DNA of 64,000 bases from Sphingomonas hengshuiensis (lineage in GTDB: Bacteria > Pseudomonadota > Alphaproteobacteria > Sphingomonadales > Sphingomonadaceae): NCBI RefSeq assembly GCF_000935025.1, contig NZ_CP010836.1, forward strand, positions 992,001-1,056,000, written 5' to 3'. This document shows positions 16,382 through 38,166 of the stretch, one piece after another. Position 1 is the stretch's first letter. Each line of letters starts with the position of its first letter. The notes beneath the pieces were generated by a model. The model made no database searches and was not told the origin of the DNA. It was given only the letters and a program-made list of their open reading frames with translations. A program made the position numbers and the translations under genes.

Positions 16382-18715
16382 ATGCGGAGCACGCGCGCGC
16401 CTGGACGGCGCCACGGCATAGTATTGCTTTCGTCGGCGGCCGTCGTCGGATTGGCGACGATGCCGGCCATGGCGCAGGAGCGGAGCGCCGCCGCGACGCA
16501 GCAGGCGGCTGATCCCGGACCCGATCTCGACCAGGGCCAGATCGAGGACATCATCGTCACGGCGCGGCGGCGTGCGGAAAGCGCGCAGGATACGCCGCTG
16601 TCGATCAGCGCGATCTCCAGCGATCAGCTTCAGCAGCTCAACATCGTTCGTATCGAAGGCATTACCCAGCTCGCCCCCAGCCTGCGCGTCACCCAGGCGA
16701 GCGGCAGCGGCAATGCGCCCGCAATCTATATCCGCGGCATCGGCACGCTATCGACGGCGCTCTATGTCGAGCCTGCAGTCGGGATCTATGTCGATGGCGT
16801 GTACACGCCGCGTCCCAGCGGCAATACCTTCGACCTTCCCGACATCTCCAGTGTCGAGGTGCTGCGCGGGCCGCAGGGCACGTTGTTCGGTCGCAATACG
16901 ACGGGCGGCGCGATCCTGCTGTCGACGCGCAACCCGACGCCCGAATTCGGGATGAAGGCGGATTTCTCCTATGGTTCGTATAATGAGCTTATCGCTTCGT
17001 CGGTCGTTCAGCTTGGCCGCCTGGGCAACTCGCCGTTCATGGCGAAGGTGTCGGCCCAGGTCCATTCGCGCGACGGCTGGGTGGAAGCGCCGGGCTATTC
17101 TCCGGCGAAATGGGGCGGGGCGCTCGACAGCTTCGGCGTCGGCGGTGCAATCCGGGGCGAGATGGGCGATTTCACGCTCGACCTGCGCGGTCGCTACAAT
17201 GACCTGATTTCCTATACCGGCTGGGAAGCACTGGCGGGTACGGCGGTCGGCAAGGCCTATTTCGGCAATGCGGGCGTCGCCAATAACCGGCCCTTCCCGA
17301 TCGGCGTGGGACCGCGCGATTATAGCTATCGCGACCCTCGCAGCGACGCGAAGTCGCAGGTCAAGACCTGGGGCGGCGTGCTGACCGCGCAATATGATTT
17401 CAGCGCAGCGTTCCAGGTCAAATCGATCACCGGCTACAACAATATCGACCAGAATCTGCGCGGCAACATCGGCGGCGGATCGACGCTGGGCATTGTCGCA
17501 AATCCGGCGGTTCCGGGACAGTTCGTCGAATCGGTGACGCCGCACGTGACCCCGAACAACCCCGGCACGCAGAAGCAGTTTACCCAGGAGCTTCAGTTGC
17601 TCGGCGACGTCGGCGACTTCAACTATCTGCTTGGCCTGTATTATTATGACGAGAAGGTCGACGAGACGATCACCACGATCCTCAATTCGCCGCTCTCGGC
17701 CACTACGGCGATCCGGCTCAATCGCAGCACCAGCTATTCGATCGATTCGACCTCGCTCGCCGGCTTCGCCCAGATCGGATGGAAGCCATCCTTCGCCGGT
17801 GGCCGGCTCGAACTCGTCGGCGGGATCCGCTATACCGAGGACAAGAAGACGCTGAGTTCTCGCTCGGTATCGACCACCACCACCACCACGATCCTCACCC
17901 AGGCGCGCAAAGACAAATGGGACAATGTCGGCTGGATGGGGTCGATCAGCTACCAACTGGTGCCGGGGGTCCTGGTCTATGGCCGCGGCGCTTCTGCCTA
18001 TCGATCGGGCGGATACAACGCACCGACAGTGGGTGCGCCGCCGTTCGGCCCGGAAACCGCGCGCAGCTACGAACTGGGCGTCAAGAGCGACTTGTTCGAT
18101 CGCCACGTGCGCTTCAACGCCGCGGTCTATCAGACCGATTATGACGATCTCCAGGTCAACGGCTACAACATCGCGACCAACACCAACCAGCTCACCAATG
18201 CGGGCAAGGCGCGCTATCGCGGCTTCGAAGTAGAGGCGCAGGCCGGGCTCGGCGGGTTTCGGATCGACGGCAATGTCGGCTATGTCGATCCGCAGTATAG
18301 CGAATATATCATCGCCGTGGCGGGCAAGCCGACCAACGTCGCGGATCAGGCGGCGTTCGCGAACGTGCCCAACTGGACCTATCATGCCGGCGCGCAATAT
18401 GCGTTGGAGACGGCGTCGGCCGGCAAGTTCACGCTGCGCGGCGATTTCACCGGAAAGGGCAATGCGCCGACCTATTCGCTGATCTCGCAGGCGCCCAATA
18501 CTGCGCAGGTCCCGCTGTATGGCGTCGAATCCAACGTCAGCCTGCGCCTCCTCTGGAATGGCACGATCCAGGGCCGCAAGATGCGCGCCCAGATTTTCGC
18601 CGAGAACCTGACCGACAATCGCTTTCTGACCTTCGCAACCGATTTCGGCGCGATCATGTCGGGCGTGTACAACCGTCCGCGCTATTACGGCGCCTCGATC
18701 GGGATCGATTTCTGA
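16382..18715 (+). CDS. TonB-dependent outer-membrane receptor
   Basis: Protein of 777 residues. A signal peptide (ending AMAQE) is followed by a TonB box ([10 protein letters not shown]), a plug domain at about 50-170 ([35 protein letters not shown]) and a 22-strand barrel ending in GIDF with C-terminal Phe. No carboxypeptidase-like signalling extension is present. This receptor class is abundant in sphingomonads and imports large or hydrophobic compounds. Its place at the head of the steroid-type cluster suggests uptake of that substrate, which is inference. A TTG at 16376 is an alternative start. Confidence 0.93.
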
Positions 18716-18720: not shown

Positions 18721-19488
18721 TTGCCAAAGCCCAGGGGCGCTCCCGGCGATCAGTCGCTGGGCGCGCTCTGGCGTCTCGATGGCAAGGTGGCGGTGGTGAC
18801 TGGCGCGGCGTCGGGGATCGGCCGTGCCGTGGCCCGGCACCTCGCCGATGCGGGCGCACGGACGATCCCGATCGATCGCCAGCCGATCGAGAGCGCGGGC
18901 GCGTTGGCGATAACCGCCGATGTTTCGGATTGGGAGGGACTGGAACGCGCAGTGGCCGCGACCTTCGCCAGCACGCCCCCTGATATTCTGGTCAATGCGG
19001 CGGGTCTGTTTCCCTCGCGCGGCGTGCTCGATCTGGACGAAGCGCATTGGGACCTGCTGCTCGATGTCAATCTGAAGGGCGCAGTGCGCATGTCGCAACT
19101 GGCCGCCCGGGCGATGGTCAAGGCGGGCAAGGGCGGCGCGATCGTCAACATCGGATCGGTCCAGGCCAGCCGCCCCACGGCGGGCAAGGCGGCCTATGCC
19201 GCGTCGAAGGCCGGGCTGGAGGCGATCACCCGCGTGCTGGCGCGTGAGCTGGCGGATGCGGCGATCCGCGTCAACGCGGTGGCGCCGGGGCCAGTGCTCA
19301 CCGAAGCGGCGCTCGTGCGCATCGCCGAAATCGAAGCTTCGGGAGGTGCCTTTCCCCCGCGCGAGGGGCGTAGCCCGCCGGGACGCCCCGACGAAATTGC
19401 GCGCGTCGTTCATTTCCTCGCCAGCCCCGCCGCATCGTTCGTGACCGGCGCGGTGTGGGTGGCGGATGGCGGCTCGACGCTGGATTGA
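18721..19488 (+). CDS. Short-chain dehydrogenase/reductase
   Basis: Protein of about 255 residues with a classical SDR layout: the NAD-binding TGAASGIG motif near residue 28, NAAG, catalytic Ser (NIGSVQAS), and YAASKAG with the Tyr and Lys. It ends with VADGGSTLD. The only start in good register is TTG at 18721, 5 bp after the receptor stop, so start choice is uncertain. It probably oxidises or reduces a hydroxyl on a cluster intermediate. Confidence 0.85.
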
Positions 19489-19614
19489 GCGTCCCATCCG
19501 ACCCGCCGATGCAGCTTCGGCACCGGAGAAATGCCCGATTGGAAACGGCCATTGCACAAGGGTGATGCTAGCCTTCAGTATAGCCGAATAATAAAGATAG
19601 AGAGGATTGCACGC

Positions 19615-20844
19615 ATGGCCACGATCTCGGTCCTCGCCCAGGATCCGCCGGTTACGTCGCCGGCTGCGGAACTGCCTGCGTGGCGCCGCATCCTGATCAT
19701 CGTCATCCTGCTGACCGGCGGCATAAAATCGGCGCTGGCCTTCACCACGGTCGTTCCCGCGCTCCAGCTTATCGCGCAGGAATATAGCGGGACCGGCGAT
19801 TCGGTGCTGAGCGCCCAGTTTGTCGTCACGCTCGCGCCGATCGGCATGGCGTTGGCCGGGCTGCTCGCCGGGGCCATCGTCTCCTCGTCCAATCTGCGCG
19901 GCATGATGTTCGGCAGCCTGGCCGTCTGCACGATGGCGGGCCTGCTGCAACTCGTGCCGATGAACTATTACGCACTGCTGGCCAGCCGCTTCGTGCTCGG
20001 CTTCAGCGCGGTGCTGGCCGATGTCGCGATGACCAGCATTCTCGCCGCGCAGTTCGGCGGGGCGTTCCGATCCAAGCTGATCGGCTATCGCCAGGCGATT
20101 TCGTCGATCGGCACCGTGTCCACCATGCTGCTGGCCGGCTGGCTGGCCCAAACCTATGGCTGGCGCGCGCCGGGCATCATGTTCCTGCTGCCGGGCGTGA
20201 TGCTCGCGGCGGCGATTTTCGCGTTCAACAAGCCGATCACGCTGGAGCGCCAGGCCGCCGCTGCGGGCGAGCGTTTCTCGATCTGGCAGCTCTGGCCGCT
20301 GCTGCTGCTTTCGCTGGTCATGTCGATCGGTCACACCATGCCGTCGTTCCAGATGCCCTTCCTGCTGCGGGAGAATGGCATCACCAGCGCGGTGCTGGTG
20401 TCGCGCGTACCCGCGCTCAGTTCGGCGATCTCCATTCTGGCGGCATTCGCCTTCGGCTTCGTCTATGCCCGGCTCGGCGCCTGGACGCTGGTGATTTCCG
20501 CCACGCTGATGGGGATCGGCTTCATCGGCGCGGGGCTCGTGCCCAGCTATGAACTGGTGCTGCTCTGCGTGGTGATCGAGGGAGTCGGGGCGGGGTGGAC
20601 GATGCCGTTCTTCCTCAACCGGGTTCTCGACAAGGCCAGTCCGGCCCAGCGCAATTACGGGATCGGCATCGTCCAGTCGTCGCTGTTCCTGGGCCATTTC
20701 CTCAACCCGATCCTGACCGCGCCGATCCGGCTCAACTTCGGCATCCATGGCACGTTCGTCGCGGTCGGCTCTGCGCTGGTGACCGTCGCGGTGTTGATCG
20801 CGGCATGGACGATGGCGACGCGCGGGGGGCGGCGCGGGATCTAG
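19615..20844 (+). CDS. MFS transporter
   Basis: Protein of 409 residues with twelve predicted membrane helices. An Ala-rich inner-membrane carrier of the CynX/NNP-like MFS type is likely (GLLAGAIV, ADVAMTSILAAQFGG, FLNRVLDKASPAQRNYG). The start at 19615 has AGAGAGGA eight bases upstream, whereas the upstream in-frame ATG at 19531 lacks a ribosome site. Its setting after the TonB receptor and SDR suggests inner-membrane uptake of the cluster's substrate or an intermediate. Confidence 0.88.
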   Translation: MATISVLAQDPPVTSPAAELPAWRRILIIVILLTGGIKSALAFTTVVPALQLIAQEYSGTGDSVLSAQFVVTLAPIGMALAGLLAGAIVSSSNLRGMMFGSLAVCTMAGLLQLVPMNYYALLASRFVLGFSAVLADVAMTSILAAQFGGAFRSKLIGYRQAISSIGTVSTMLLAGWLAQTYGWRAPGIMFLLPGVMLAAAIFAFNKPITLERQAAAAGERFSIWQLWPLLLLSLVMSIGHTMPSFQMPFLLRENGITSAVLVSRVPALSSAISILAAFAFGFVYARLGAWTLVISATLMGIGFIGAGLVPSYELVLLCVVIEGVGAGWTMPFFLNRVLDKASPAQRNYGIGIVQSSLFLGHFLNPILTAPIRLNFGIHGTFVAVGSALVTVAVLIAAWTMATRGGRRGI

Positions 20845-20925: not shown

Positions 20926-20942
20926 AATGTAGGAGTTTGGAT

Positions 20943-22088
20943 ATGCCTTTGGGAAGTTCGCGGCTGATCTCTGCCGACAGCCATTTCAACGAGCCGGGTG
21001 ACCTGTTCACCAAGCGCGTTGCCGAGAAGTTCAAGCGCCGTGCGCCCCGGATGGAGAGCTTTCCGGAAGGCGATGGCTGGATTTTCGAAGGGCTCGACGG
21101 TCCGCGCAATTTCGGCTGGAACGCCTGTGCCGGACTACCGCCCGAAGAGACCAAGGCATGGATGCGTTTCGACGATATGCGCAAAGGAGGCTGGGACCCC
21201 GCCGAGCGGCTGAAGGAGCAGGATCGCGACGGCGTCACCGCCGAAGTCATGTATCCCACACCGTCGATCCAGGCGGCGATCGCCCTGGTCGAGGATGAGG
21301 AGCTCCACCTCGCGCTGGTGCGGGCGTATAATGACTGGGTCTCGGAATATGTCGCTTACGACCCGGCGCGCTTCTGCGGCCTGGTGTTCCTCCCCAATCG
21401 CGGCGGCGTGAAGGTCGCGGTCGACGAGATGAACCGCGTGCTCGGCCGCCCCGGCATGCGCGCGGTGATGGCCCAGGCCTATCCGACCGGCACGACGGTG
21501 ATGACCGACGAGCATGATTATCTGTGGGCGGCGATCCACGAGCGCGACGTCAGCTTCAACATCCACGTCGCGCTCGGCATCTACAAGCCGAGCCCGCACA
21601 AGGCGAAGCTCCCCGGCTATGGCCGGTTCTTCGACGCGCCCAACCGCTGCATCGAATTCATCTTCAACGGCGTGTTCGATCGCTATCCGAACCTGAAGGT
21701 CGCCTTTGCCGAAGTCGATTTCGGCTGGGTGCCCTATGTGAAGGAGCAGATCGACAACAATTATCAGCGGCTTGAGAAGGTCAACCAGTTCGGCCTTGAG
21801 CGGCTGCCGTCCGAATATATCGATGAGCATTTCTATTTCGGCTACATGACCGACAGCTTCGGGCTCAACAACCTCAACTATATGAACCCCGAACGGGTGC
21901 TGTGGTCGACCGACTATCCGCACATAAGCGCCGATTATCCCTATAGCTGGCGCACGATCCAGGCGTCGATGTCCGGCGTGCCCGGCCCGGTAAAGGCCGC
22001 GATCCTCCACGAGAATGCGGCGAAGCTCTATGGCTTCCCCGATGTCGCGGCCAAGGTGGAGAGCCGCCCGGCGCTCGCCGCCGAGTAA
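20943..22088 (+). CDS. Amidohydrolase-2 family metal-dependent hydrolase
   Basis: Protein of 381 residues of the ACMSD/LigY-like amidohydrolase-2 family, a TIM barrel. The N-terminal metal motif is atypical (ISADSHF in place of DxHxH). Later motifs include NIHVALGIYK and the terminal LWSTDYPH with the metal-binding Asp. Relatives decarboxylate or hydrolyse carbon-carbon bonds of ring-cleavage products. It is first in the block leading into ipdA and ipdB and has its own promoter and operator, so it is likely catabolic. The exact reaction cannot be assigned. The ATG at 20943 has GGAG upstream. Confidence 0.82.
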   Translation: MPLGSSRLISADSHFNEPGDLFTKRVAEKFKRRAPRMESFPEGDGWIFEGLDGPRNFGWNACAGLPPEETKAWMRFDDMRKGGWDPAERLKEQDRDGVTAEVMYPTPSIQAAIALVEDEELHLALVRAYNDWVSEYVAYDPARFCGLVFLPNRGGVKVAVDEMNRVLGRPGMRAVMAQAYPTGTTVMTDEHDYLWAAIHERDVSFNIHVALGIYKPSPHKAKLPGYGRFFDAPNRCIEFIFNGVFDRYPNLKVAFAEVDFGWVPYVKEQIDNNYQRLEKVNQFGLERLPSEYIDEHFYFGYMTDSFGLNNLNYMNPERVLWSTDYPHISADYPYSWRTIQASMSGVPGPVKAAILHENAAKLYGFPDVAAKVESRPALAAE

Positions 22089-22171: not shown

Positions 22172-23041
22172 ATGTTTGACAAGAGGATGACGGTCGACGC
22201 GATCGTCGATCAGCTGTGCGATGGCATGACCATCGCCATTGGCGGCTGGGCGACGCGGCGAAAGCCGATGGCGCTGGTCCGGGCAATTGCCCGCTCCAAT
22301 CTCAAGGACCTGACGGTGATCGCCTATGGCGGCCCCGATGTCGGCATCCTCGCCGCCTGTGGCAAGCTGCGCCTGCTCGTCTTCGCATTCGTCTCGATGG
22401 ACCAGATTCCTATCGAGCCGCACTTCAGGGCCGCGCGCCAGGCGGGCCTGGAGGTGTGGGAAATGGACGAGGGGATGCTCCATTGGGGCCTGCGCGCGGC
22501 GGCGATGGGGCTGCCGTTCCTGCCGACCCGTGTGGGCATCGGGACCGCGATTGCTGACGACCCGCGGTTCAAGACGGTAACCAGCCCTTACGGCGATGGC
22601 GAGACGCTGATCGCGATGCCCGCGATCAAGCCCGACGTCGCGCTGCTCCACGTTCATCGCAGCGACGAGAAGGGCAATGTCCTGACGCTCTCGCCCGATC
22701 CGTTCTTCGACGAACTGATGGCGCGCGCTGCCGAACAGACCTTCGTGACGACCGAGCAGGTCGTCTCGACCGCAGAGCTGGATCTGCCGGCCAATGCGCG
22801 CTTCCATCTGGTCGAGCGGGCGTTGATCGCGGGCGTCGCGGAGGTGCCCTTCGGCGCTCACCCGACCAGCGCCGCGCCGGACTATCACCTCGATCTCGCC
22901 CATCTGCGCAGCTACGCCGCCGCCGAGGGGGAGGCGTGGGACGCCTATCGCGCGCGCTATATCGGCGTGGATGCCCCCTCCTATCTGGCGGCGGTCGGCG
23001 GGGCGGATGCGATCCGCGCCATTCCCGCACCGAACTATTGA
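22172..23041 (+). CDS. ipdA: CoA-transferase-fold steroid ring hydrolase, alpha subunit (IpdA-like)
   Basis: Protein of 289 residues that follows actinobacterial IpdA closely: an MFDKRMTVDAIVDQL start, GGWATRRKPMALVRAI, AYGGPDVGIL, the EMDEGML box at 97-103, LPFLPTRVGIG and VTSPYGDGETLIAMPA. In Mycobacterium and Rhodococcus, IpdAB forms a heterodimer with the CoA-transferase fold that hydrolytically opens the last carbocycle of the steroid nucleus (COCHEA-CoA). Comamonas ScdL1L2 plays the same part. The beta subunit follows after 10 bp. The match is by motif and order, judged by eye. Confidence 0.86.
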   Translation: MFDKRMTVDAIVDQLCDGMTIAIGGWATRRKPMALVRAIARSNLKDLTVIAYGGPDVGILAACGKLRLLVFAFVSMDQIPIEPHFRAARQAGLEVWEMDEGMLHWGLRAAAMGLPFLPTRVGIGTAIADDPRFKTVTSPYGDGETLIAMPAIKPDVALLHVHRSDEKGNVLTLSPDPFFDELMARAAEQTFVTTEQVVSTAELDLPANARFHLVERALIAGVAEVPFGAHPTSAAPDYHLDLAHLRSYAAAEGEAWDAYRARYIGVDAPSYLAAVGGADAIRAIPAPNY

Positions 23042-23051
23042 GGAGCGGCGC

Positions 23052-23843
23052 ATGACCGACACCCAAGCCACGCTCGCCGACCTGCTGATCGCCGCCTGCG
23101 CCGAAGTGTGGCGCGACGATCCCGAATGGCTGGCGACCGGCATCACCCCGATCCCACGCCTGGGGGCGAGCCTGGCCAAGCTGAGCTTCAACCCGCGGCT
23201 GATGATCACCGATGCGGAGAACATGTTCCTGGAGGAACCGGCGCCGATCGGCCCGCGCGATGCCTCGCCGACCGCCGAAGGATGGGCGCCCTATGCCCGC
23301 ACCTTCGACAATCTGTGGGGCGGGCGGCGGCACGCATTGGTCGCGCCGGTGCAGATCGACCGTTTCGGCCAGACCAACATCAGCGTGATCGGCGATCATG
23401 CCGCACCCAAGGCGGCGCTGCTGGGCGCGCGGGGCTTTCCGGGCAACAGCATCTCGCACCCGAACAGCTTCTTCGTACCGCAGCATAGCCGCCGGTCGCT
23501 GGTCGCGGGCGAAGTCGATTATGTCTGTTCGGCGGGCTATAATCCGGCGCGCTGGCCCGATGGCCGCCCGCCGCATCGGCTGGAGCTTCGACGGATCGTC
23601 ACCAATCTGTGCGTGATGGATTTTGGTGGGCCGGATCATGCCATCCGGCTGGTGTCGCTGCATCCCGGCGTCGGCGTCGAGGAGGTGCGCGACAATAGCG
23701 GGTTCGATGTGGTCGTGGAGGGCGATGTGCCCGCTACGCCGGTGCCCGACGCGGCGGCGCTGGCGATCATCCGGCGCCTCGATCCCCACGGCATTCGCGC
23801 CAGCTTGTTGAAGGGCAACCCGCCCGCCGTTCGCGCCACGTGA
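23052..23843 (+). CDS. ipdB: CoA-transferase-fold steroid ring hydrolase, beta subunit (IpdB-like)
   Basis: Protein of 263 residues. It shares the IpdB pattern: an ACAEVWRDD start region, LGASLAKLSFNPRLMITDAE, EGWAPYARTF, LWGGRRHALV, QIDRFGQTNIS, GFPGNSISHP, and VTNLCVMDFGGPDHAIRLVS with LHPGV. It is expected to form the active hydrolase with IpdA. The start ATG at 23052 has GAGGAG upstream and lies 10 bp after the ipdA stop. Confidence 0.86.
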   Translation: MTDTQATLADLLIAACAEVWRDDPEWLATGITPIPRLGASLAKLSFNPRLMITDAENMFLEEPAPIGPRDASPTAEGWAPYARTFDNLWGGRRHALVAPVQIDRFGQTNISVIGDHAAPKAALLGARGFPGNSISHPNSFFVPQHSRRSLVAGEVDYVCSAGYNPARWPDGRPPHRLELRRIVTNLCVMDFGGPDHAIRLVSLHPGVGVEEVRDNSGFDVVVEGDVPATPVPDAAALAIIRRLDPHGIRASLLKGNPPAVRAT

Positions 23844-23908
23844 TCGCCGGCGGGCTTGCGATGTTTTCAAAGCACCACTGACTTGCCGCGACGCTATCGA
23901 GCGGGCGG

Positions 23909-23940
23909 TTGACGGCCCCAACATTATAATGATTGATAGT
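23909..23940 (+). promoter_or_regulatory. Candidate promoter before the enoyl-CoA hydratase operon
   Basis: TTGACG (23909-23914) is followed after 17 bp by ATTGAT (23932-23937), with a TATAAT (23925-23930) inside the spacer. A GATAG half-site (23935-23939) matches the right arm of the operator at 20906. The gap of 120 bp after ipdB is long for this otherwise packed operon, supporting a separate promoter. Confidence 0.4.
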
Positions 23941-23963
23941 CGAAAGAGCGGAGAGGGTCAGGA

Positions 23964-24854
23964 ATGAGCGCGGGCACGCCCGGGGCGGCGGACATTGTCT
24001 ATGAGACCGACGCGCCGGTCCTCTATGAGGTTCGCAGCGGCGTCGCCTGGGTGACCATGTCGCGCGAGCGCTACAACAACGCCCAGAACAGCCAGATGAC
24101 CTATGCGCTGGACGACGCCTTCCGCCGCGCGGTCGACGATCCGGAGGTCAAGGCGATCGTGCTGGCCGGGGCGGGGAAGCATTTCTCCGCCGGGCACGAC
24201 ATCGGCACGCCGGGTCGCGATCTGGCGCGCAGCTTCCCCCGCGCGCACCTGCTGCCCGACCATGTCGGGCGGCCCGGCGCAGAACTGCTCTATACCCGCG
24301 AGCAGGAAGTCTATCTCGGTATGTGCCGCCGCTGGCGCGACATCCCCAAGCCGACGATCGCGATGGTGCATGGCGCCTGCATCGCGGGCGGGCTGATGCT
24401 GGCCTGGGTCTGCGATCTGATCATCGCGTCCGATGACGCGTTTTTCCAGGACCCCGTCTCGCGGATGATGGGGATTCCCGGCGTCGAATATTTCGCGCAC
24501 GGCTTCGAACTGCCGCCGCGCGTGGCGAAGGAATTCCTGCTGCTCGGCGAACGGATGCCCGCCGAGCGCGCCTATGGCTTCGGGATGGTCAACAAGGTGG
24601 TCTCCCGCGCCGAACTGGCGGAGGCGACTGCGGAGATAGCGGCCAAGCTGGCGGCGCAAGCGTCGCTCGGCATGTGGCTGACCAAGCAGGCGATCCATCA
24701 GGTCGAGGAACTGCGCGGCAAGCGTAGCGCGATGGATGCCGTGTTCCACATGCACCATTTCGCCCATGCCCAGAACGACCTGACCACCGGCAATGCGCTG
24801 GGCGGCGTCACCGGCAAAAGCGCTGCCGCCGACAACAAACAGGCGGAGGGATGA
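23964..24854 (+). CDS. Enoyl-CoA hydratase/isomerase family protein
   Basis: Protein of 296 residues with the crotonase fold: oxyanion-hole motifs HFSAGHDIG and HGACIAGGLML. It is longer than typical hydratases because of an N-terminal 20-residue extension and a His-rich C-terminal helix region. Related proteins with this size occur in steroid gene sets next to the nitronate-monooxygenase-like reductase. It overlaps the next gene by ATGA (24851-24854), so it is in the same operon. Substrate not assignable from sequence. Confidence 0.85.
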   Translation: MSAGTPGAADIVYETDAPVLYEVRSGVAWVTMSRERYNNAQNSQMTYALDDAFRRAVDDPEVKAIVLAGAGKHFSAGHDIGTPGRDLARSFPRAHLLPDHVGRPGAELLYTREQEVYLGMCRRWRDIPKPTIAMVHGACIAGGLMLAWVCDLIIASDDAFFQDPVSRMMGIPGVEYFAHGFELPPRVAKEFLLLGERMPAERAYGFGMVNKVVSRAELAEATAEIAAKLAAQASLGMWLTKQAIHQVEELRGKRSAMDAVFHMHHFAHAQNDLTTGNALGGVTGKSAAADNKQAEG

Positions 24855-25939
24855 GCGACGAGCTCGCCACGCCGCTGACCGCCATGCTGGGGTGCCGCCT
24901 GCCGGTGATCCAGACCGCAATGGGCTGGGTCGCCGAGCCGGTGCTGGTCGCGGCGACCGCAGAGGCGGGCGGTTTCGGGTTCCTCGGGGCGGCGGTGATG
25001 ACTCCGGTCGAGGCGGCGGCGAAGATTGCCGAGGTGCGGCGGCGGACCCCGCTGCGCTTCGGCGTGAACTTCCACATGTTTCAGCCGGGGGCGGCGGAAC
25101 TGGTCGATGTCATCCTCGCCAATCGCGAACAGGTGGCGGCGGTCAGCTTCGGGCGGGGGCCGGACGGGCGGATGATCGCGCGATTTCGCGACGCCGGCAT
25201 CCGCTGCGTGCCGACCGTGGGCGCGGTCAAACATGCGCGGAAGATGGCGGCGCTGGGCGCCGACATGCTGGTGGTGCAGGGCGGCGAGGGCGGTGGGCAT
25301 ACCGGATCGGTGGCGACCACGGTGCTGCTGCCGCAGGTGCTCGATGCCGTCGATCTGCCGGTGGTTGCGGCGGGCGGCTTTGCCGACGGGCGCGGGCTCG
25401 CGGCGGCGCTGGCCTATGGGGCCGTTGGCATCGCGATGGGCACGCGCTTCCTGATGACGCGCGAGAGCCCGGTGCCGGCGCAGGTGAAGCACTATTATAT
25501 CGGTGCGCGGACCGATGACATCCTCGTCACCGACAAGGTGGACGGAATCCCGCAGCGGATGATCCGCAACCCCGCGCTCACGCGGGTCACCGGAGGCGGG
25601 CGGATCGGTTCGTGGACATCGGCGCTGTCTGCCGGGCTGGCGATGAAGCGCGCCACGGGTGCGTCCTGGCCGCAGTTGTTGCGGATGGCGCAGGGAATGC
25701 GCCGCCATGGCGGGCTGAGCCTGTCGCAGGCGCTGCGCGCCGCCGCCGCGCCCGCGTTGCTTCAGCGTGCAGTGGTAGGCGGCGATGCCGAGGGCGGGCT
25801 GATGGCGACGGGCCAGGTCGCGGGCCGGATCGAGGACCTCCCCAGCGTCGCGGACTTGCTTGGCGGGATCGAGCGCGAGGCGCGGGCCCGGATCGCCGCG
25901 CTCACCGCCGCGCCGCCGCTAAAGAGAAAGCACGCCTGA
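24851..25939 (+). CDS. ipdC: Nitronate-monooxygenase-fold flavoprotein (IpdC-like)
   Basis: Protein of 362 residues, an FMN-binding TIM barrel of the NPD/2-nitropropane-dioxygenase family: an IQTAMGWVAEP start, QGGEGGGHTGS, and the phosphate-binding AAGGFADGRG plus GTRFLMTRESP. In actinobacteria the cognate IpdC is a flavin-dependent reductase acting on the 5-hydroxy-hexahydroindane CoA intermediate, and the gene lies beside ipdAB as here. It overlaps the hydratase genes on both sides by 4 bp and 1 bp, showing tight coupling. Confidence 0.82.
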   Translation: MSDELATPLTAMLGCRLPVIQTAMGWVAEPVLVAATAEAGGFGFLGAAVMTPVEAAAKIAEVRRRTPLRFGVNFHMFQPGAAELVDVILANREQVAAVSFGRGPDGRMIARFRDAGIRCVPTVGAVKHARKMAALGADMLVVQGGEGGGHTGSVATTVLLPQVLDAVDLPVVAAGGFADGRGLAAALAYGAVGIAMGTRFLMTRESPVPAQVKHYYIGARTDDILVTDKVDGIPQRMIRNPALTRVTGGGRIGSWTSALSAGLAMKRATGASWPQLLRMAQGMRRHGGLSLSQALRAAAAPALLQRAVVGGDAEGGLMATGQVAGRIEDLPSVADLLGGIEREARARIAALTAAPPLKRKHA

Positions 25940-26688
25940 TGCCGATACGCACCCGCGTCGCCGACCGTATCGGCGAGATCATCCTCGATCATCCGCCGGT
26001 CAACGCGCTCGACAGCGCGGGCTGGAACGCGGTGCCCGGGATTGTCACGGCGATGGGTCGCGATCCCGAGGTCCGCTGCGTGCTGATCCGTGGCGAGGGA
26101 CGCGGCTTTTGCGGCGGGGTCGACATCAAGGAGATGCAGGCCCATCCGGAGCGGATCGTCCAGCTCAATCGCGGCAATTACCGCAGCTTCCAGGCGGTGC
26201 GCGCCTGCGAAGTGCCGGTGGTAAGCGCGGTACACGGCTTCATCATCGGATCGGGCATCGGCATTTGCGGCGCCTCCGACGTGGTGATCGCGGCGGAGGA
26301 TGCCTATTTTTCTCTGCCCGAGGTCGATCGCGGCGCGATGGGCGGGGCCAGCCACCTGATGCGGATGTTCCCGCTGCAAAAGGTTCGGGCGGCGTTCTTC
26401 ACAGGCGGGCGGATCGACGCCGCCGAGGCCTATCGGCTCGGCGCGGTGGAGAAGGTGGTCCCGCGCGAACACCTCGTCGAGGAGGCGCGGGCGTTCTGCG
26501 CGGTGATCGCGTCGAAGAGCCGCAAGGCGCTGACCACCGCAAAGGAAGCGCTCAACGGCATCGAGCCGCGCGACGTCGATCATGGCTATCGCTTCGAACA
26601 GGGCTTCACGCTGGAGATGTACCTCCACGAGGACAGCCAGCGTGCCCGCGATGCCTTTGTCCAGACCGGCAAGACGGCGGATTATTGA
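25939..26688 (+). CDS. echA20: Enoyl-CoA hydratase-fold ring hydrolase (EchA20-like)
   Basis: Protein of 249 residues. Motifs match actinobacterial EchA20: DHPPVNAL, EGRGFCGGVDIKEMQ, VNGF-like VHGFIIGSGIGI, GASDVVIAAEDAYFSLPEVDRGA, and the C-terminal YRFEQGFTLEMYLH. EchA20 opens ring C of the steroid nucleus as a CoA-ester hydrolase before IpdAB acts. Its start overlaps the ipdC stop by one base. Together with ipdA, ipdB and ipdC this completes the known C/D-ring opening set. Confidence 0.83.
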   Translation: MPIRTRVADRIGEIILDHPPVNALDSAGWNAVPGIVTAMGRDPEVRCVLIRGEGRGFCGGVDIKEMQAHPERIVQLNRGNYRSFQAVRACEVPVVSAVHGFIIGSGIGICGASDVVIAAEDAYFSLPEVDRGAMGGASHLMRMFPLQKVRAAFFTGGRIDAAEAYRLGAVEKVVPREHLVEEARAFCAVIASKSRKALTTAKEALNGIEPRDVDHGYRFEQGFTLEMYLHEDSQRARDAFVQTGKTADY

Positions 26689-26690
26689 CC

Positions 26691-27851
26691 ATGGACCTGC
26701 GCTACAGCCCCGCCGAACAGGTCTTCCGCGCCGAAGTGCGCCAATGGCTCGCCGAGCATGTGCCCGCCGCGCCGCTGCCCGACTTCGACTCCTCAGTCGA
26801 AGGGTTCGAGGCGCACCGTGCGTGGGAACGCACGCTCCATGCCGGGGGCTGGGGTATGGTCACCTGGCCGGTCGACTATGGCGGGCGGGGGCTCGACTTG
26901 ATCCGCTGGCTGATCTTCGAGGAAGAATATTACCGCGCCGGTGCGCCGCTGCGCGTCAACCAGAACGGCATCTTCCTGCTCGGTCCCACCCTGATCGAAT
27001 ATGGAACGCCCGAGCAGAAAGCCCGCTTCCTGCCCGCAATGGCGGCGGGGGACGAGATCTGGGCGCAGGCATGGTCCGAACCGAGCGCCGGCAGCGACCT
27101 TGCCGGTGTGCGCTCGACTTTGGTGCGGGATGGCGACGAGTATGTGCTGTCGGGCCACAAGATCTGGTCCTCCCGCGCGGTCCATGCCGATTGGGCGTTC
27201 GGGCTGTTCCGCACGCCGGGCAGCGAGCGGCACAAGGGCCTGTCGCTCGTCTTCTTCCCGCTGGACGCGGCGGGGGTGACGGTGAAGCCGATCGCGCGGC
27301 TCGACGGCAAGCCGGTGTTCGCCGAGCTGTTCCTCGACGAGGTGCGCGTGCCCGCGTTCAATCGGCTGGGCGCGGAAGGCCAGGGTTGGTCGGTGTGCAT
27401 GTCGACTGCCGGCTTCGAACGCGGGCTGATGCTGCGCAGCCCGGCGCGCTTCCAGATGGCGGCGGCAAGGCTGGTCGAACTCCATCGCGGTCGCGCCGAC
27501 AGCGTCGAGCCCGAGGTACGGGCGCGGGTGCTACAGGCGTGGATGGACGCCGACGCCTATGCGCTGTCGATCTATTCCACCGCCAGCCGATTGATGGCGG
27601 GCGGCGCGATCGGGCCGGAAACGAGCACCAACAAGATTTTCTGGTCCGAGCTGGATCTCGATCTGCACAGGACCGCGCTGGCGCTTCTCGGTGCCGAGGC
27701 CGAGCTGACCGGCGCCGCGCCCGATGCCTCGGCGGATATAGGCGACTGGCTCGACGGCTACGTCTTTTCGCTGGCTGGCCCGATCTATGCGGGCGCGAAC
27801 GAGATCCAGCGCAACATCATCGCCGAGCGTATGCTCGGACTGCCGAGGTAG
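26691..27851 (+). CDS. Acyl-CoA dehydrogenase, steroid-type large subunit
   Basis: Protein of 386 residues with the full ACAD fold (WPVDYGGRG, WSEPSAGSDLAG, GHKIWSS, IIAERMLGLPR). The usual C-terminal base Glu of YEGT is replaced by Ala (IYAGANEIQRN). A Glu at about 243 (GFERG) lies where isovaleryl-CoA and steroid ChsE4-type dehydrogenases place theirs. It is followed directly by a second ACAD gene, as in heterotetrameric steroid side-chain or ring dehydrogenases. Substrate is probably a steroid-derived acyl-CoA. Confidence 0.85.
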   Translation: MDLRYSPAEQVFRAEVRQWLAEHVPAAPLPDFDSSVEGFEAHRAWERTLHAGGWGMVTWPVDYGGRGLDLIRWLIFEEEYYRAGAPLRVNQNGIFLLGPTLIEYGTPEQKARFLPAMAAGDEIWAQAWSEPSAGSDLAGVRSTLVRDGDEYVLSGHKIWSSRAVHADWAFGLFRTPGSERHKGLSLVFFPLDAAGVTVKPIARLDGKPVFAELFLDEVRVPAFNRLGAEGQGWSVCMSTAGFERGLMLRSPARFQMAAARLVELHRGRADSVEPEVRARVLQAWMDADAYALSIYSTASRLMAGGAIGPETSTNKIFWSELDLDLHRTALALLGAEAELTGAAPDASADIGDWLDGYVFSLAGPIYAGANEIQRNIIAERMLGLPR

Positions 27852-27856: not shown

Positions 27857-28900
27857 ATGGATTTTCGCCTTACCGATGAGCAGCAGATGCTGGCCGACAT
27901 GGTCGCCCAGCTTCTGGCCGAGACCTGCACCGGCGCGGATTTGCGGCGGCTGCTGGAAAGCGGCGAACCGCGCGATGCTGCGCGCTGGGAACAGATTGTG
28001 GGACTGGGCCTGCCGGGCACGATGGCGCCCGAAAGCGCTGGCGGCAGCGGGCTCGGGCGGGTGGAGATGGCGCTGATCGCCACCGCCTGCGGCTATGCCG
28101 TCCTGCCCGAGCCTTTGGTGGAGCACGCCGGGATCGCGGTGCCGCTGCTTGCCGCTGCGGGGGTGGAGCTTGGCGCGGCGCTGTCGGGCGGGACGATCGC
28201 GGTTGGCCATCCGATCAACCCCTTCGTCGCCGACGCCGATGCGGCGAAGTCGCTGTTGCTCGCCGAGGGCGACGCCGTGCATCTGGTGCCCCGCGACCGG
28301 GTGACGCTGGTGCGGCAGCCAAGCATCGATCCCTTCCGCCGCCTGTTCCGGGTCGATTGGCAACCTTCGGCCCAAACACGGATCGGGGGCGGGGCATTGT
28401 GGGCGGATGCGCTGGATCGTGGCGCCTTGCTCGCGGCGGCGCAGCTTCTCGGCCTTGCTCAGCGGGCCGTTGATCTCTCGGTCGCCTATGCGGCCGAGCG
28501 GCAGCAATTCGGCAAGCCGATCGGGGCGTTTCAGGCCATCAAGCACCACCTCGCCAACGCGCAGGTCAGGATCGAGTTCGCGCGGCCCGTGATCCTCGCC
28601 GCCGCCGCGATGCCGCCCTCGCCGCTGGCGCAGGCGCGGATCAGCCATGCCAAGCTTGCTGCCACCGCCGCTGCCGAGGCCGCAACCCATGCGGTGGTGC
28701 AGGTCCATGGCGCGATGGGCTATTCGTGGGAAGTCGACGTGCATTTCCTGCTAAAGCGCAGCCTTGCGCTCGGTCAGGCCTGGGGGACGCCGGGCTTCCA
28801 CCGCTCCCGCGTCGCCGATCATGTGCTGTCCGCCCCGCTCGGTGCCGACCGCACCTTTGACACCGGCCAGATCGAGGAGATCCGCAGTGAAGCCGCTTGA
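27857..28900 (+). CDS. Acyl-CoA dehydrogenase, second subunit
   Basis: Protein of 347 residues, shorter than a complete ACAD. It has MDFRLTDEQQML at the start, RQQFGKPIGAFQAIKHHLA, and a C-terminal VHGAMGYSWEVDVHFLLKR region. No catalytic Glu is evident at either usual site. The gene starts 5 bp after the large-subunit gene, which fits the alpha2beta2 dehydrogenases of steroid catabolism in which one subunit supplies the base and both share FAD. Its stop overlaps the next gene. Confidence 0.83.
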   Translation: MDFRLTDEQQMLADMVAQLLAETCTGADLRRLLESGEPRDAARWEQIVGLGLPGTMAPESAGGSGLGRVEMALIATACGYAVLPEPLVEHAGIAVPLLAAAGVELGAALSGGTIAVGHPINPFVADADAAKSLLLAEGDAVHLVPRDRVTLVRQPSIDPFRRLFRVDWQPSAQTRIGGGALWADALDRGALLAAAQLLGLAQRAVDLSVAYAAERQQFGKPIGAFQAIKHHLANAQVRIEFARPVILAAAAMPPSPLAQARISHAKLAATAAAEAATHAVVQVHGAMGYSWEVDVHFLLKRSLALGQAWGTPGFHRSRVADHVLSAPLGADRTFDTGQIEEIRSEAA

Positions 28901-30512
28901 GGTCGCACGCAGCCTGCGGGCCGACCCGGAGGTCGCCGCGCGCTATCACGCCGCTGGCTGGTGGAGCGAACGCACTTTGTCCGGTCGCGTGGCCGCGCTT
29001 GCCGCGACCCGTCCCGAGCAGACCGCCTGGATCACGCCACAGGGCCGCTTCAGCTGGGGCGCCTATGATCGCGCTGCGACCCGCATCGCCGCGCTGCTTT
29101 CCGCCAAGGGGCTATTGCCCGGCGCGCGGGTTGCGGTGCTGCTGCCCGATGGACCGGCGGTTCATGCCGCATTGCTGGGGATCGAGCGGGCGGGCATGGT
29201 CGCGGTGGGCATCGGCGCGCGCGCAGGCGTGGCGGAGGTCGCGCATCTGCTCAGGCGCACCGGCGCCACGATCATCCTTGCGCACGACAGGATGCGCGAT
29301 GGTACGCTGCCCGAACTGGTCGAGGCGGCACGCGCGCAGGGCGCGCCGCTGGAGGACTGGCTGATCGTTCCCGACCTGATGGCGTTTCGCAACTGGAGCG
29401 CGGGGGAGACGCCGGACCATCCCCCGTTTCCGGCGGGCGATCCCGACACATTGTTTCTGATCAACTCGACTTCGGGCACCACGGGAATGCCCAAATGCGT
29501 GATGCACACGCAGAATCGCTGGTTCTATTTCCACCAGCTCGCCGCCGAGGCGGGCCGTTTCGGCGCGGACGAGATCTTCATGGGCGCGGTTCCGGCGCCG
29601 TTCGGCTTCGGGCTGTGGACCTCGCATTTCTCGCCGACGATCCTGGGCTGCCCGACCGTGGTGCTGCCCAAATTCGATGCGGGCACCGCATTGGACATGA
29701 TCGAGCGCGAGCGGGTGACGGTGCTGTGCTGCGTCTCGACTCAGTTCATCATGCTGCTCAACGAACAGGCCGAGCGCCCGCGCGATCTCTCGTCGCTGCG
29801 GTCGATGTTCACCGGCGGCGAAGCCGTGCCCTATCGCCGCGCCGCCGAGTTCGAGGAAGTGACCGGCGCGGCGGTGCTGCAATTCTATGGCTCGAACGAA
29901 ACCGGCGCGCTCAGCCGTACCACCGCCGCCGATACACGCGACCGGCGGCTGAACACGGCGGGGCGCGTCATCCCCGAAATGGAGGTCCGGCTGTTCGACC
30001 CCGTCAGCGGCGCCGAGGTCGCGGGCAGGGGACAGCCCGGCTGTCGGGGTCCTGCGACCTGCCTCGGCTATTGGGACGATGACGCGGCGAATGCGAAGCT
30101 CTTCACGCCCGATGGCTGGATGCTGATGGGCGACATCGTCGAGGTCGATGACGAAGCCTATCTGCGCGTCGTCGGTCGCACCTCCGAATTCATCATTCGT
30201 GGCGGCAAGAACCTCTCGGCGCCGGCGATCGAGGCCGAGGTCGCGACGCACCCGGCGGTGGCGCTGGTCGCGGCGGTCCCGGCGCCCGATGCGGTGTTCG
30301 GCGAGCGCGTCTGCATCTATGTCACGCCGCGCCCGCACCAGCAGGTGACGCTCGAAGGCATCACCGCCCATCTCCACGCGCGCGGTGTCTCGCGCGAATG
30401 GTTTCCCGAATATCTCGTCCTGATGGACGACCTGCCGCGCTCGTCGGGCGGCAAGGTCGCCAAGGGCGAACTCACTGCGGACGCGAAGAGGCGTTGGGCG
30501 GTGCCAGCATGA
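28887..30512 (+). CDS. Acyl-CoA synthetase (ANL superfamily)
   Basis: Protein of 541 residues. It carries the A3 loop STSGTTGMPKCVMHTQ, FYGSNETG, the GWMLMGDIVEVDDE and VVGRTSEFIIRGGKNLSAP core, and a C-terminal SSGGKVAKGEL lysine. It adenylates a carboxylic acid and forms its CoA thioester. The start is GTG at 28887, with GGAG eight bases upstream and an overlap of 14 bp with the preceding stop. Being inside the operon it may activate a steroid side-chain or hexahydroindane propanoate, but it is not obviously FadD3. Confidence 0.85.
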   Translation: MKPLEVARSLRADPEVAARYHAAGWWSERTLSGRVAALAATRPEQTAWITPQGRFSWGAYDRAATRIAALLSAKGLLPGARVAVLLPDGPAVHAALLGIERAGMVAVGIGARAGVAEVAHLLRRTGATIILAHDRMRDGTLPELVEAARAQGAPLEDWLIVPDLMAFRNWSAGETPDHPPFPAGDPDTLFLINSTSGTTGMPKCVMHTQNRWFYFHQLAAEAGRFGADEIFMGAVPAPFGFGLWTSHFSPTILGCPTVVLPKFDAGTALDMIERERVTVLCCVSTQFIMLLNEQAERPRDLSSLRSMFTGGEAVPYRRAAEFEEVTGAAVLQFYGSNETGALSRTTAADTRDRRLNTAGRVIPEMEVRLFDPVSGAEVAGRGQPGCRGPATCLGYWDDDAANAKLFTPDGWMLMGDIVEVDDEAYLRVVGRTSEFIIRGGKNLSAPAIEAEVATHPAVALVAAVPAPDAVFGERVCIYVTPRPHQQVTLEGITAHLHARGVSREWFPEYLVLMDDLPRSSGGKVAKGELTADAKRRWAVPA

Positions 30513-31306
30513 CCTACCAGAACCTCAAGCTCGAACTCGACGGCCGCATTGCGCGCGTCACCCTGGCGCGCGGCGACAAGCTCAACCCGCTCGACTGGTC
30601 GACGGTCAAGGAACTGAAGGCCGTCGTCGCCCGGATCGAGGCCGCGCCCGGCATCGATTTCGTGCTGCTGACGGGGGAGGGGCGCAGCTTCTCCGCCGGG
30701 GGCGACCTCGATGGCTATATCCGGCTCTATCGCGATCCCGCCGCCTTCCAGGCCTTTCTCGACGATTTCTTCGCGATGCTGACCGGCATCGAAAAGGCGC
30801 GGGCGATCTGGATCGCGGCGGTGAACGGCGTGTGCGTGGCGGGCGGGATCGAATTGCTGCTCGCGTGCGACATGGGCGTAGCCGCCGAGAGCGCGAAGAT
30901 CGGCGATGGCCATCTCAATTTCGGCCAGCTCCCCGGCGCGGGCGGATCGCAGCGTCTGCCACGGGCGATCGGGCTGCTGCGCGCCAAGCATCTGATGCTC
31001 ACCGGCGAACTGCTCGATGCCCGGACGGCGGAACGCTGGGGGCTGGTGACAAAGGTCGTGCCCGATGCCGATCTGATGGCGGCTGCGGGCGCCTGGATCG
31101 CGGGCATGTCCGCCAAGAGCGCCGTCGGGCTGGCCGGGGCCAAGCGGCTCGCCAACCTGACGCTCGACACGCCCTACGAGGAGGGGCTCCGGCGGGAGAT
31201 CGCCTTCGTCCACCGCTACGCCACCACCGAGCCCGACGCCACCGAGGGCCTTGTCGCCTTCAAGGAAAAGCGCGCCCCGCGTTTCGGCACGCCCAGGAAA
31301 GACTGA
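30509..31306 (+). CDS. Enoyl-CoA hydratase/isomerase family protein
   Basis: Protein of 265 residues with the crotonase fold: SFSAGGDLDGY and VNGVCVAGGIELLLACD for the oxyanion hole, and LPGAGGSQRLPRAIG. It overlaps the synthetase by ATGA. Probably a beta-oxidation step on a side-chain or ring-derived CoA ester. Confidence 0.88.
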   Translation: MTYQNLKLELDGRIARVTLARGDKLNPLDWSTVKELKAVVARIEAAPGIDFVLLTGEGRSFSAGGDLDGYIRLYRDPAAFQAFLDDFFAMLTGIEKARAIWIAAVNGVCVAGGIELLLACDMGVAAESAKIGDGHLNFGQLPGAGGSQRLPRAIGLLRAKHLMLTGELLDARTAERWGLVTKVVPDADLMAAAGAWIAGMSAKSAVGLAGAKRLANLTLDTPYEEGLRREIAFVHRYATTEPDATEGLVAFKEKRAPRFGTPRKD

Positions 31307-31308: not shown

Positions 31309-32466
31309 ATGTTCAAACTGCGTGACAAATATGCGATCGCCGGGATCGGCAACACCGATTACACCAAGGCATCGGGCCGGACGGTGCGGAGTCTCGCCAC
31401 CGAAGCATGCCTGAAGGCGATCGAGGATGCGGGGCTGACCGTCGCCGATATCGACGGCATCGTCAGCTTCAATTTCAACGACAGCGCGCCGGCCATCGGC
31501 GTTGCGACCGAGATGGGCATCGAGAATGCCGGCTATGCGGTTGATTATGCCGCCGGGGGCAATGGCGCCAATCTGATCACGCTGGCGGCGACCGCCGCGA
31601 TCGAGGCCGGGCTGGCGAAGAACGTCGTCTGCTTTCGCGCGATGAACGGACGCTCGGGCTTCCGCCTCGGCGGGGGGCGCGATCTGTCGGCCTATGGCGT
31701 CACCCAATACACCGCGCCGCTCGGCTGGATAACCTATCCGCAGGCGATGGCGATGTGGGCGCGGCGCCATATGATCGACTACGGCACCACCGAGGAACAT
31801 TGGGCCGAGATCGCCACGACCTTCCGCGACAATGCCGTGATCAACGAACGCGCGATGCAGCGTACGCCGATGACCAGGGACGATTATTACAACTCGCGCT
31901 TCATCGTCGATCCGTTCCGCATGTACGACATCTGCCTGGAGAGCGACGGCGCCTGCGCAGTGGTCATCACCTCGGCCGAGCATGCCCGCGATCTAAAGCA
32001 GAAGCCGGTCTATATCATGGGTGGCGCCTATGGCGGCGGGCCCAGCCAGGGCGACGACCTGTTCGACGCGATCCGCTGGCCGAGCCATTCGCATAATTGC
32101 TTCAAATACCTGGCCGACGATCTGTGGGGCAGCGCGGGCATCGGTCCGCAGGATATCGACGTCGCCGAAATCTATGACTGCTTCACCTACAGCGTGCTGA
32201 TGGCGCTGGAGGGGCTGGGCTTCTGCAAGGAGGGGGAGGGTGGCCCCTTCGTCATGGGCGGGCGGATTGCCCGCGACGGCGCACTGCCGCTCAACACCCA
32301 TGGCGGGCTGTTGTCCGAGGCGTATATCCACGGCTTCAACCATGTGATCGAGGCGGTCGAGCAACTGCGCGGCACCTCTGGCGCGCGCCAGATTGAGGGC
32401 GCGGAGATCGCGCTTACCACCGCGGGCGCGATGACCTGCGGCAGCGCCATGATCCTGAGGAACTGA
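31309..32466 (+). CDS. Thiolase-fold lipid-transfer protein, likely retro-aldolase (Ltp2-like)
   Basis: Protein of 385 residues with the thiolase fold (YAIAGIGNTDY start, DIDVAEIYDCFTYSVL, PLNTHGGLLSEAY, GSAMILRN). At the position of the thiolase nucleophilic Cys it has Gly (DYAAGGNGANL), so ordinary thiolysis is unlikely. This fits the Ltp2-type enzymes that, with a DUF35 partner, cleave beta-hydroxyacyl-CoA side chains by retro-aldol reaction in steroid catabolism. The DUF35 gene follows after 1 bp. Confidence 0.82.
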   Translation: MFKLRDKYAIAGIGNTDYTKASGRTVRSLATEACLKAIEDAGLTVADIDGIVSFNFNDSAPAIGVATEMGIENAGYAVDYAAGGNGANLITLAATAAIEAGLAKNVVCFRAMNGRSGFRLGGGRDLSAYGVTQYTAPLGWITYPQAMAMWARRHMIDYGTTEEHWAEIATTFRDNAVINERAMQRTPMTRDDYYNSRFIVDPFRMYDICLESDGACAVVITSAEHARDLKQKPVYIMGGAYGGGPSQGDDLFDAIRWPSHSHNCFKYLADDLWGSAGIGPQDIDVAEIYDCFTYSVLMALEGLGFCKEGEGGPFVMGGRIARDGALPLNTHGGLLSEAYIHGFNHVIEAVEQLRGTSGARQIEGAEIALTTAGAMTCGSAMILRN

Positions 32467-38071: not shown

Positions 38072-38166
38072 TTGCCTAAATGCGATCGCTGGCATCGGGA
38101 GCGGGCACTCGACCGTCGCGCCTCGCACGACCTAACCCGACGTCACAGATTGGACAGGAGTGGATC

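Follow-up and report, generated by a model that had tools for sequence, protein, structure and literature searches.

A conserved island around a steroid C/D-ring gene set in Sphingomonas hengshuiensis, possibly supplied by a non-9,10-seco route

Introduction

In Comamonas testosteroni TA441 the genes for degradation of steroid rings C and D follow the order scdL1L2-N-K-Y-M1M2-F-E-C1C2-G-D-J within the steA-tesR cluster, which also holds tesB (PMC13101464), and they were tabulated by Crowe et al. (2017; PMC5380842). In Mycobacterium and Rhodococcus, ipdA, ipdB, ipdC, echA20 and two acyl-coenzyme A (CoA) dehydrogenase (ACAD) genes belong to the KstR2 regulon (PMC5380842). Among sphingomonads, bile-salt clusters have been described in Caenibius tardaugens and Sphingobium Chol11, and cholate strongly induces the "amidohydrolase" gene EGO55_16305 there (PMC12882949). 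We analyzed a 64,000-nucleotide stretch of the Sphingomonas hengshuiensis genome (contig 1, positions 992001-1056000; hereafter the window), in which an earlier note had pointed to neighboring homologues of ipdA, ipdB, ipdC and echA20.

The first seven genes of the window set share the order of the TA441 cluster, and the window thiolase is orthologous to the one that a genus-mate carries at the ScdJ position. The window genome differs from TA441 (PMC13101464) in having no ScdC1 orthologue or BphC_D1 domain and only distant ScdF relatives; instead, the window carries a putative dinuclear oxygenase (ARO), the ligase LIG1, the crotonase ECH2, an LTP2-DUF35 pair, a luciferase-like monooxygenase (LLM) and a P450. 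With the KstR2 regulon it has ipdA, ipdB, ipdC, echA20 and two ACAD homologues in common, but no fadA6/fadE30 orthologue adjoins them, the regulators are of the GntR and LysR families and the gene order is another (PMC5380842). The clusters of C. tardaugens and Chol11 resemble it in their sphingomonad host, the "amidohydrolase" gene and the presence of side-chain genes and genes for methylhexahydroindanedione propionate (HIP), but a 9,10-seco route was assigned to them by their authors (PMC12882949).

We read the locus as the lower, C/D-ring half of the scd/ipd pathway inside a catabolic island of about 40 kb whose supply would come from a non-9,10-seco route, with an estimated probability of about 0.52. 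This reading draws on homology and gene order, conservation in five genomes, the failure to detect orthologues for the upper pathway and for HIP entry, the metal ligands of the AH2 protein and the active-site residues of LTP2. The core is another member of a set already known in this group, and the novelty lies in the island around it, whose feeder could be mechanistically new. No description of such an island was found in the literature searched, with partial coverage judged mostly by titles and abstract openings; this included literature on DitZ/PtmU3 and diterpenoids, on terpenoid degradation and IpdAB, and on S. colocasiae and S. populi.

Results and discussion

The C/D-ring core

The window genome (G000; two contigs, 5.23 Mb, completeness 100, contamination 0.65) was compared with 298 genomes of the family, taken to be Sphingomonadaceae from the named relatives, and with 295 of the genus, G000 being counted in both samples. 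We also retrieved the best 80 of at least 550 relatives' loci, with flanks of up to 10 kb. The canonical reference was the cluster of the genus-mate G484 (locus L165), whose ScdF, E, C1C2, G and J genes were assigned by position only. The core comprises the following genes:

IpdA (ScdL1): 22172..23041, plus strand; matches PDB 6co6_A, 57% identical to the canonical G484 copy
IpdB (ScdL2): 22971..23843, plus strand; 60% to the G484 copy, true start probably downstream of the open reading frame (ORF) start
PRK08290 hydratase, ScdN position: 23964..24854, plus strand; 405 bits (cut-off 280), 76% to the G484 copy
IpdC (ScdK), FabK-like flavoprotein: 24851..25939, plus strand; 70% to the G484 copy
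EchA20 (ScdY): 25939..26688, plus strand; PRK07938, 337.5 bits (cut-off 260), 77% to the G484 copy
ACAD1 (ScdM1): 26691..27851, plus strand; 64% to the G484 copy
ACAD2 (ScdM2), IpdE2-like: 27857..28900, plus strand; 47% to the G484 copy

Profile and PDB scores bear out the placing and order of the IpdA, IpdB, IpdC and EchA20 homologues given in the earlier note. IpdA scores 235.8 bits against PDB 6co6_A, compared with 90.8 for glutaconate CoA-transferase and at most 61.3 for acetate and 3-oxoacid types, and IpdB scores 176.7 bits against the solved IpdAB compared with 53.2 for the next CoA-transferase class. Both proteins are thus far nearer to the solved IpdAB than to other CoA-transferases, and a grouping with ordinary 3-oxoacid CoA-transferases, which the earlier note had named as the outcome that would speak against it, is contradicted by these scores. 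The pair is of the IpdAB type, with a predicted role as hydrolase of 2-(2-carboxyethyl)-3-methyl-6-oxocyclohex-1-ene-1-carboxyl-CoA (COCHEA-CoA). The best model for IpdC is FabK, at 225 bits and below its cut-off of 453. EchA20, recognized by PRK07938, which we take to be the EchA20 family model, starts at 25939 and not at the long-ORF start 25612. Against the curated IpdE2 model NF050027, ACAD2 reached 134 bits, below the cut-off of 450. A 772-aa ORF (26582-28900) that looked like a fusion of IpdE1- and IpdE2-like ACADs was rejected, its first half being in the wrong frame.

The full order ipdA-ipdB-hydratase-ipdC-echA20-ACAD-ACAD was found in 40 of the 80 loci, from Alpha-, Beta- and Gammaproteobacteria, and such recurrence indicates that the arrangement is not due to chance; among the other 40, many are on short contigs or have no hydratase, and some hold IpdAB alone. 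The earlier note had drawn attention to the set in an alphaproteobacterium. It turned out to be ordinary in Proteobacteria, Alphaproteobacteria included, and its order is published; at E<=1e-60, IpdA matches occur in 41/298 family genomes and 18/295 genus genomes. In the 40 full-order loci a thiolase comes next in 36 and then an SDR in 33 of those 36, and LIG1 follows in three loci, those of S. colocasiae, Sphingobium sp. CECT 9361 and a Caulobacter metagenome-assembled genome (MAG; L015).

In a tree of 107 IpdA+IpdB pairs, which held IpdAB only and was rooted on 6co6, the window proteins fall in a subclade separate from the canonical copies of sphingomonads (IpdA identity 53-60%). The closest named relatives of the window IpdA are those of S. 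populi (90%) and S. colocasiae (86%). This separate subclade, together with the feeder genes of the island itself and the failure to find a steroid-nucleus marker (both below), would suit a set co-opted for a non-steroid hydrindane, for instance a hydrindanone acid of plant or microbial origin, in which IpdAB would have kept its fold to open a CoA ester of the cyclic beta-diketone type. However, EchA20, the hydratase and IpdC are still 70-77% identical to the canonical copies, which suggests nearly the same late intermediates, and we consider such a co-option highly unlikely.

A conserved island around the core

The core genes belong to an island of about 40 kb that is conserved almost gene for gene in five genomes: G000, G410, G556, S. 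colocasiae and Sphingobium sp. CECT 9361 (G002). These are the only five genomes in the samples with an IpdA of the window type, and three of them (G000, G410 and G556) are among the 18 IpdA-bearing genus genomes. When 34 predicted window products, one of which (UNK43) is an antisense frame, were compared with the other four genomes, all were kept in G410 (73-98% identity), all except SDRd in G556 (69-99%), all in S. colocasiae, with extra genes inserted (60-96%), and all except SDRe in CECT 9361, where the P450 and aminotransferase genes lie upstream (58-95%). LTP2 (95-99%), AH2 (91-98%) and EchA20 (87-97%) rank with the most strongly conserved products. Around the core, the island contains:

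TonB-dependent receptor: 16376..18715, plus strand; Pfam, 72-89% in the other four genomes
SDRa, an SDR: 18721..19488, plus strand; Pfam, 58-92% in the other four
MFS transporter: 19531..20844, plus strand; Pfam, 70-93% in the other four
AH2, PF04909 "amidohydrolase" read as a PtmU3-like dinuclear oxygenase (ARO): 20937..22088, plus strand; fold and ligands
LIG1, acyl-CoA ligase: 28887..30512, plus strand; profile match, 65% in Caulobacter MAG L015, where it also follows ACAD2
ECH2, crotonase: 30509..31306, plus strand
LTP2, probable Ltp2/Sal-type aldolase of the thiolase superfamily: 31309..32466, plus strand; 6ok1 248.7 bits, YDCF motif
DUF35, stand-alone OB_ChsH2_C protein: 32468..32887, plus strand; Pfam
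PaaK-like acyl-CoA ligase: 32891..34294, plus strand
SDRb, an SDR: 34397..35236, plus strand; Pfam
SDRc, an SDR: 35249..36034, plus strand; Pfam
SDRe, an SDR: 36055..36816, minus strand; no orthologue in the CECT 9361 copy
LLM, luciferase-like monooxygenase: 36822..37952, minus strand; Pfam, PDB matches distant only
FMN reductase: 38080..38748, plus strand; Pfam
THIO, thiolase: 38856..40058, plus strand; 60% to THIO2 (ScdJ position) of the canonical G484 cluster
RibBA-type DHBP synthase/GTP cyclohydrolase II: 40058..41200, plus strand; Pfam
AH3, Amidohydro_3 protein: 41259..42995, plus strand; Pfam
Gene with a weak Coq4 match: ORF 42614..43867, plus strand; 22.5 bits (cut-off 22.9), start probably near 42990
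DHDPS-fold aldolase/lyase: 43934..44863, minus strand; Pfam
GntR-FCD regulator: 44952..45734, plus strand; Pfam
LysR regulator: 46767..47798, plus strand; Pfam
ACAD3: 48735..50591, plus strand; Pfam
SDRd: 50588..51535, plus strand; Pfam, no match in the G556 copy
APH-fold kinase: 51528..52580, plus strand; Pfam
ACAD4: 52583..53821, plus strand; Pfam
Aminotransferase: 54131..55429, minus strand; Pfam, upstream of the island in CECT 9361
P450 of the CYP125/124/142/terp clan: 55389..56642, minus strand; 74-94% in the other four, upstream in CECT 9361

Three candidate assignments were discarded. LIG1 is neither FadD3 (207 bits, cut-off 657) nor a steroid-24-oyl-CoA ligase (far below the cut-off), and UNK43 (43136-43888, minus strand) is no conserved unknown gene; it is antisense to the plus-strand gene with the weak Coq4 match.

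Upper-pathway markers

Four markers of ring A/B degradation were searched for: KshA_C (PF19298), BphC_D1 (PF22632; HsaC/TesB type), KstD and HsaA/TesA2. The KstD and HsaA queries were proteins of G337, named by position and motif only, and were run on 11 genomes at E<=1e-40.

KshA_C had no match in G000; 13 of 15 IpdA-bearing genomes did match, G000 and G003 being the two without. BphC_D1 likewise gave no match in G000, while 9 of 10 genomes matched, in a search confined to this one extradiol dioxygenase family. In 14 control genomes each of the two profiles produced a single match, under the cut-off. Among the 18 IpdA-bearing genus genomes some KshA_C match was present in 16, and only the three with the window-type island had none above 26 bits (none in G000 and G556, 25.6 bits in G410), the best scores of the other 15 being at least 91 bits. 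BphC_D1 was detected in 11 of the 18 and was missing from G000, G410, G556, G472, G321, G484 and G507. Neither KstD nor HsaA was found in G000 or G556 at the threshold used, and G410 yielded 36% matches only. CECT 9361 has no KstD, an HsaA-like protein (43%), a single KshA_C match (87 bits) and, for BphC_D1, weak matches of 28 and 25 bits; S. colocasiae has KstD-like (43%) and HsaA-like (66%) proteins together with a second IpdA of the canonical type.

The earlier note was right that ring A/B genes are absent nearby, and for the four markers searched the whole genome gives the same picture. The 4,5-dioxygenase of estrogen degradation belongs to the BphC_D1 type. Of the substrates that had been suggested, androgen, bile acid or estrogen degraded by known aerobic routes is unsupported, as no relative of KshA_C, BphC_D1, KstD or HsaA was found at the thresholds used.

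Entry point of the module

Orthologues of ScdK, Y, L1L2, N and M1M2 are present in the window at 47-77% identity to the G484 copies, and one of ScdJ (60%) by position only. The best window matches to ScdF, C2 and C1 of G484 are at 35, 37 and 42%. In eight genomes searched, ScdC1, the HIP-CoA dehydrogenase, was found at 69-81% in G001, G453, G337 and G321; G000, G410, G556 and G002 have no orthologue, their best match (43-45%) being ACAD1 itself. The best genome-wide match to ScdF/FadA6 is 56% in G000 and G410 and 44% in G556 and G002, compared with 70-84% in G001, G453, G337 and G321. With ScdC1 missing and ScdF at best distant, the module seems to start once the propionate chain of HIP is gone, with hydrindane-carboxyl-CoA as its entry stage, and to depend on another route for its supply.

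These data bear on the possibility that the strain is a scavenger, importing HIP, or acids resembling it, that other steroid-degrading organisms release, removing the propionate chain with LIG1, ACAD3/4, ECH2, the SDRs and THIO, and then using the usual scd core. The near-canonical C/D core would fit, as would the presence of importers, ligase, hydratase, dehydrogenases and thiolase and the failure to find any of the four upper-pathway markers in G000. We regard it as unlikely, however, given the missing ScdC1 and the distant ScdF, and it leaves the conserved ARO, P450, LLM/FMN reductase and Ltp2-DUF35 genes unexplained. The earlier description of the locus as a separate lower-pathway island holds in that the C/D-stage homologues stand together in an island of their own. 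It is not simply a HIP island of the KstR2 type, in view of ScdC1 and ScdF, and its regulators are of the GntR, LysR and, near the P450, TetR families.

AH2 as a putative dinuclear oxygenase

The gene next to ipdA on its upstream side encodes AH2; in eight genus-mates a BphC_D1 (TesB-type dioxygenase) domain occupies this place, 735-758 nt from ipdA. Its fold was compared with DitZ, PtmU3, AibH and SfbO, further rows reflecting the general PF04909 fold and being left out. All six metal ligands (D,H,H,E,D,H) are present in AH2 and in 22/22 aligned homologues; in an alignment of 26 PF04909 proteins from IpdA-bearing genomes, one of them AH2, 20 carry the ligand set and 6 do not. Carbon C-5 of the PtmU3 substrates is beta to the thioester. 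The fold and the six ligands are shared with PtmU3 of the platensimycin/platencin pathways, AibH2, SfbO and LynB7 (PMC10811679, PMC10401708, PMC10127204). AH2 differs from PtmU3 in its sequence (26-27% identity) and in its place in a catabolic island. We read AH2 as an ARO of the PtmU3 type with a predicted function as O2-dependent hydroxylase. A role as thioesterase or plain amidohydrolase was rejected, since PtmU3 is a diiron monooxygenase (PMC10811679, PMC10401708, PMC10127204) and the ligand pattern is unlike that of other PF04909 paralogues.

A separate observation concerns seven sphingomonad genomes, in which PF04909 proteins bearing every ARO ligand are encoded 1.5-1.8 kb away from a KshA_C-family Rieske match of about 100 bits (loci L187, L188, L191, L193, L198, L199, L205 and L206 of G382, G383, G411, G507, G462, G411, G001 and G484, respectively). 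They are possibly a conserved oxygenase pair.

LTP2-DUF35, the P450 and the substrate

LTP2 is probably an aldolase. In its alignment with Thermomonospora curvata Ltp2 (6ok1), tyrosines stand at the places of TcLtp2 Tyr294 and Tyr344, and its YDCF motif is that of TbSLP and near the YDCY of CtSal; the roles of these residues in Ltp2/Sal aldolases are taken from PMC12329534. As in Ltp2-ChsH2(DUF35) and Sal-Shy(DUF35), a thiolase-fold aldolase with the Tyr of the YD motif lies beside a DUF35 protein, but here the YDCF motif is combined with a Tyr at the Ltp2 Tyr344 place and the DUF35 protein stands alone (PMC12329534, PMC12502768). That protein has 139 aa, consists of a zinc ribbon and an OB fold only and is not fused to MaoC, and no MaoC domain turned up in the Pfam-scanned island ORFs. 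When the side chain is removed in the canonical way, a dehydrogenase and a hydratase of the MaoC family generate the beta-hydroxyl (PMC12502768); a hydroxylase of the PtmU3 type could introduce such a group directly.

The P450 scores 376.9 bits against the chain CYP125MRCA, 258.6 against a CYP125 and 258.0 against P450terp. Its clan, taken together with LTP2, suggests a branched isoprenoid chain, and so a sterol-, secosteroid- or terpenoid-like compound; a sterol- or terpenoid-like molecule is our candidate substrate.

A proposed route and the evidence against it

In the route we propose, a sterol- or terpenoid-like substrate would be taken up by the TonB receptor and the MFS carrier and oxidized at one end by the P450, and LIG1 or the PaaK-like ligase would form the CoA thioester. 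AH2 would then add a hydroxyl to a tertiary carbon of the thioester, by analogy with PtmU3 acting on a diterpenoid-CoA, and LTP2 with DUF35 would cleave the resulting beta-hydroxyacyl-CoA by a retro-aldol reaction, at the C17 side chain or at a ring A/B bond. Further acyl-CoA steps may deliver a methyl-hydrindanone carboxyl-CoA to IpdC, EchA20 and IpdAB, by which rings D and C would be opened, with ACAD1/2, the hydratase and the thiolase completing beta-oxidation. A bolder version, which we put forward tentatively and ourselves hold doubtful, is a second aerobic way into the C/D-ring pathway: tertiary hydroxylation of the PtmU3 type and Ltp2-DUF35 retro-aldol cleavage would replace KstD/KshA aromatization and HsaC meta-cleavage and hand hydrindanone-carboxyl-CoA directly to IpdC/EchA20/IpdAB. 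In that case AROs, at present annotated as amidohydrolases, would act repeatedly as oxygenases in the breakdown of steroids or terpenoids by sphingomonads.

Several observations weigh against a feeder other than the 9,10-seco pathway. A KshA_C-type Rieske gene lies inside the S. colocasiae copy of the island (90 bits), and that of CECT 9361 (87 bits) is beside its P450. G472, G321, G484 and G507 have scd-type clusters (loci L161-L172) and yet no BphC_D1, so its lack alone says little; as the KstD and HsaA queries also failed to match in G321, G507 and G472 (E<=1e-40), missing markers are by themselves no proof of a new route. The absence calls rest on homology thresholds, and unrelated enzymes could perform the same steps. 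AROs are common away from ipd genes, with an AH2 match at E<=1e-12 in 17/20 genomes, mostly at 26-36% identity and some lacking the ligand set. The P450 match marks the clan and not CYP125 as such, and no aldehyde dehydrogenase or ferredoxin domain was found among the Pfam-scanned island ORFs, some small ORFs being unscanned.

The pattern in G321, G507 and G472 means that divergent upper enzymes may exist, and the locus might belong to an ordinary steroid degrader that encodes such enzymes elsewhere, the island then holding the lower pathway and side-chain genes; Ltp2-DUF35 and a CYP125-clan P450 would suit sterol side-chain removal. We judge this quite improbable, because those three genomes retain KshA_C-type Rieske genes (91-107 bits), whereas G000 and G556 have none and lack all four markers.

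In the survey of Holert et al. (2018), a genome bin needed at least one of KshA and HsaC to count as a steroid degrader (PMC5790920). Should an IpdAB pathway run in genomes without either, surveys based on KshA/HsaC would miss part of steroid or terpenoid breakdown, and the C/D-ring module would serve more than one upper pathway. The locus also offers a testable function for "amidohydrolases" with the ligands of O2-activating dinuclear enzymes.

Other observations

Relatives of island genes occur at other ipdAB loci. Those of a Rhodospirillales MAG and two Rhizobiaceae MAGs (L026, L046 and L054) hold relatives of ACAD4 (61-62%) and THIO (61-67%), the first also one of the APH gene (55%), and LLM relatives (59-69%) lie near ipdAB in L005, L006, L055, L072 and L162. 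Within the island stretch there are also a nitroreductase gene at 45755-46396 and, between ACAD4 and the aminotransferase, a small RidA-like (Ribonuc_L-PSP) gene at 53814-54170 on the plus strand. A TetR-family regulator gene (56501-57274, plus strand) adjoins the P450 and is a candidate island regulator. Just upstream of the TonB receptor, and transcribed away from it, is a LytTR response regulator and histidine kinase pair (14353-16139, minus strand). Farther out, the window encodes a DUF6065 domain fused to a Cupin_8/JmjC-like domain (10372-12156, plus strand) and a two-partner-secretion transporter (ShlB, POTRA; 8219-9928, minus strand), with a long ORF without a Pfam match on the opposite strand.

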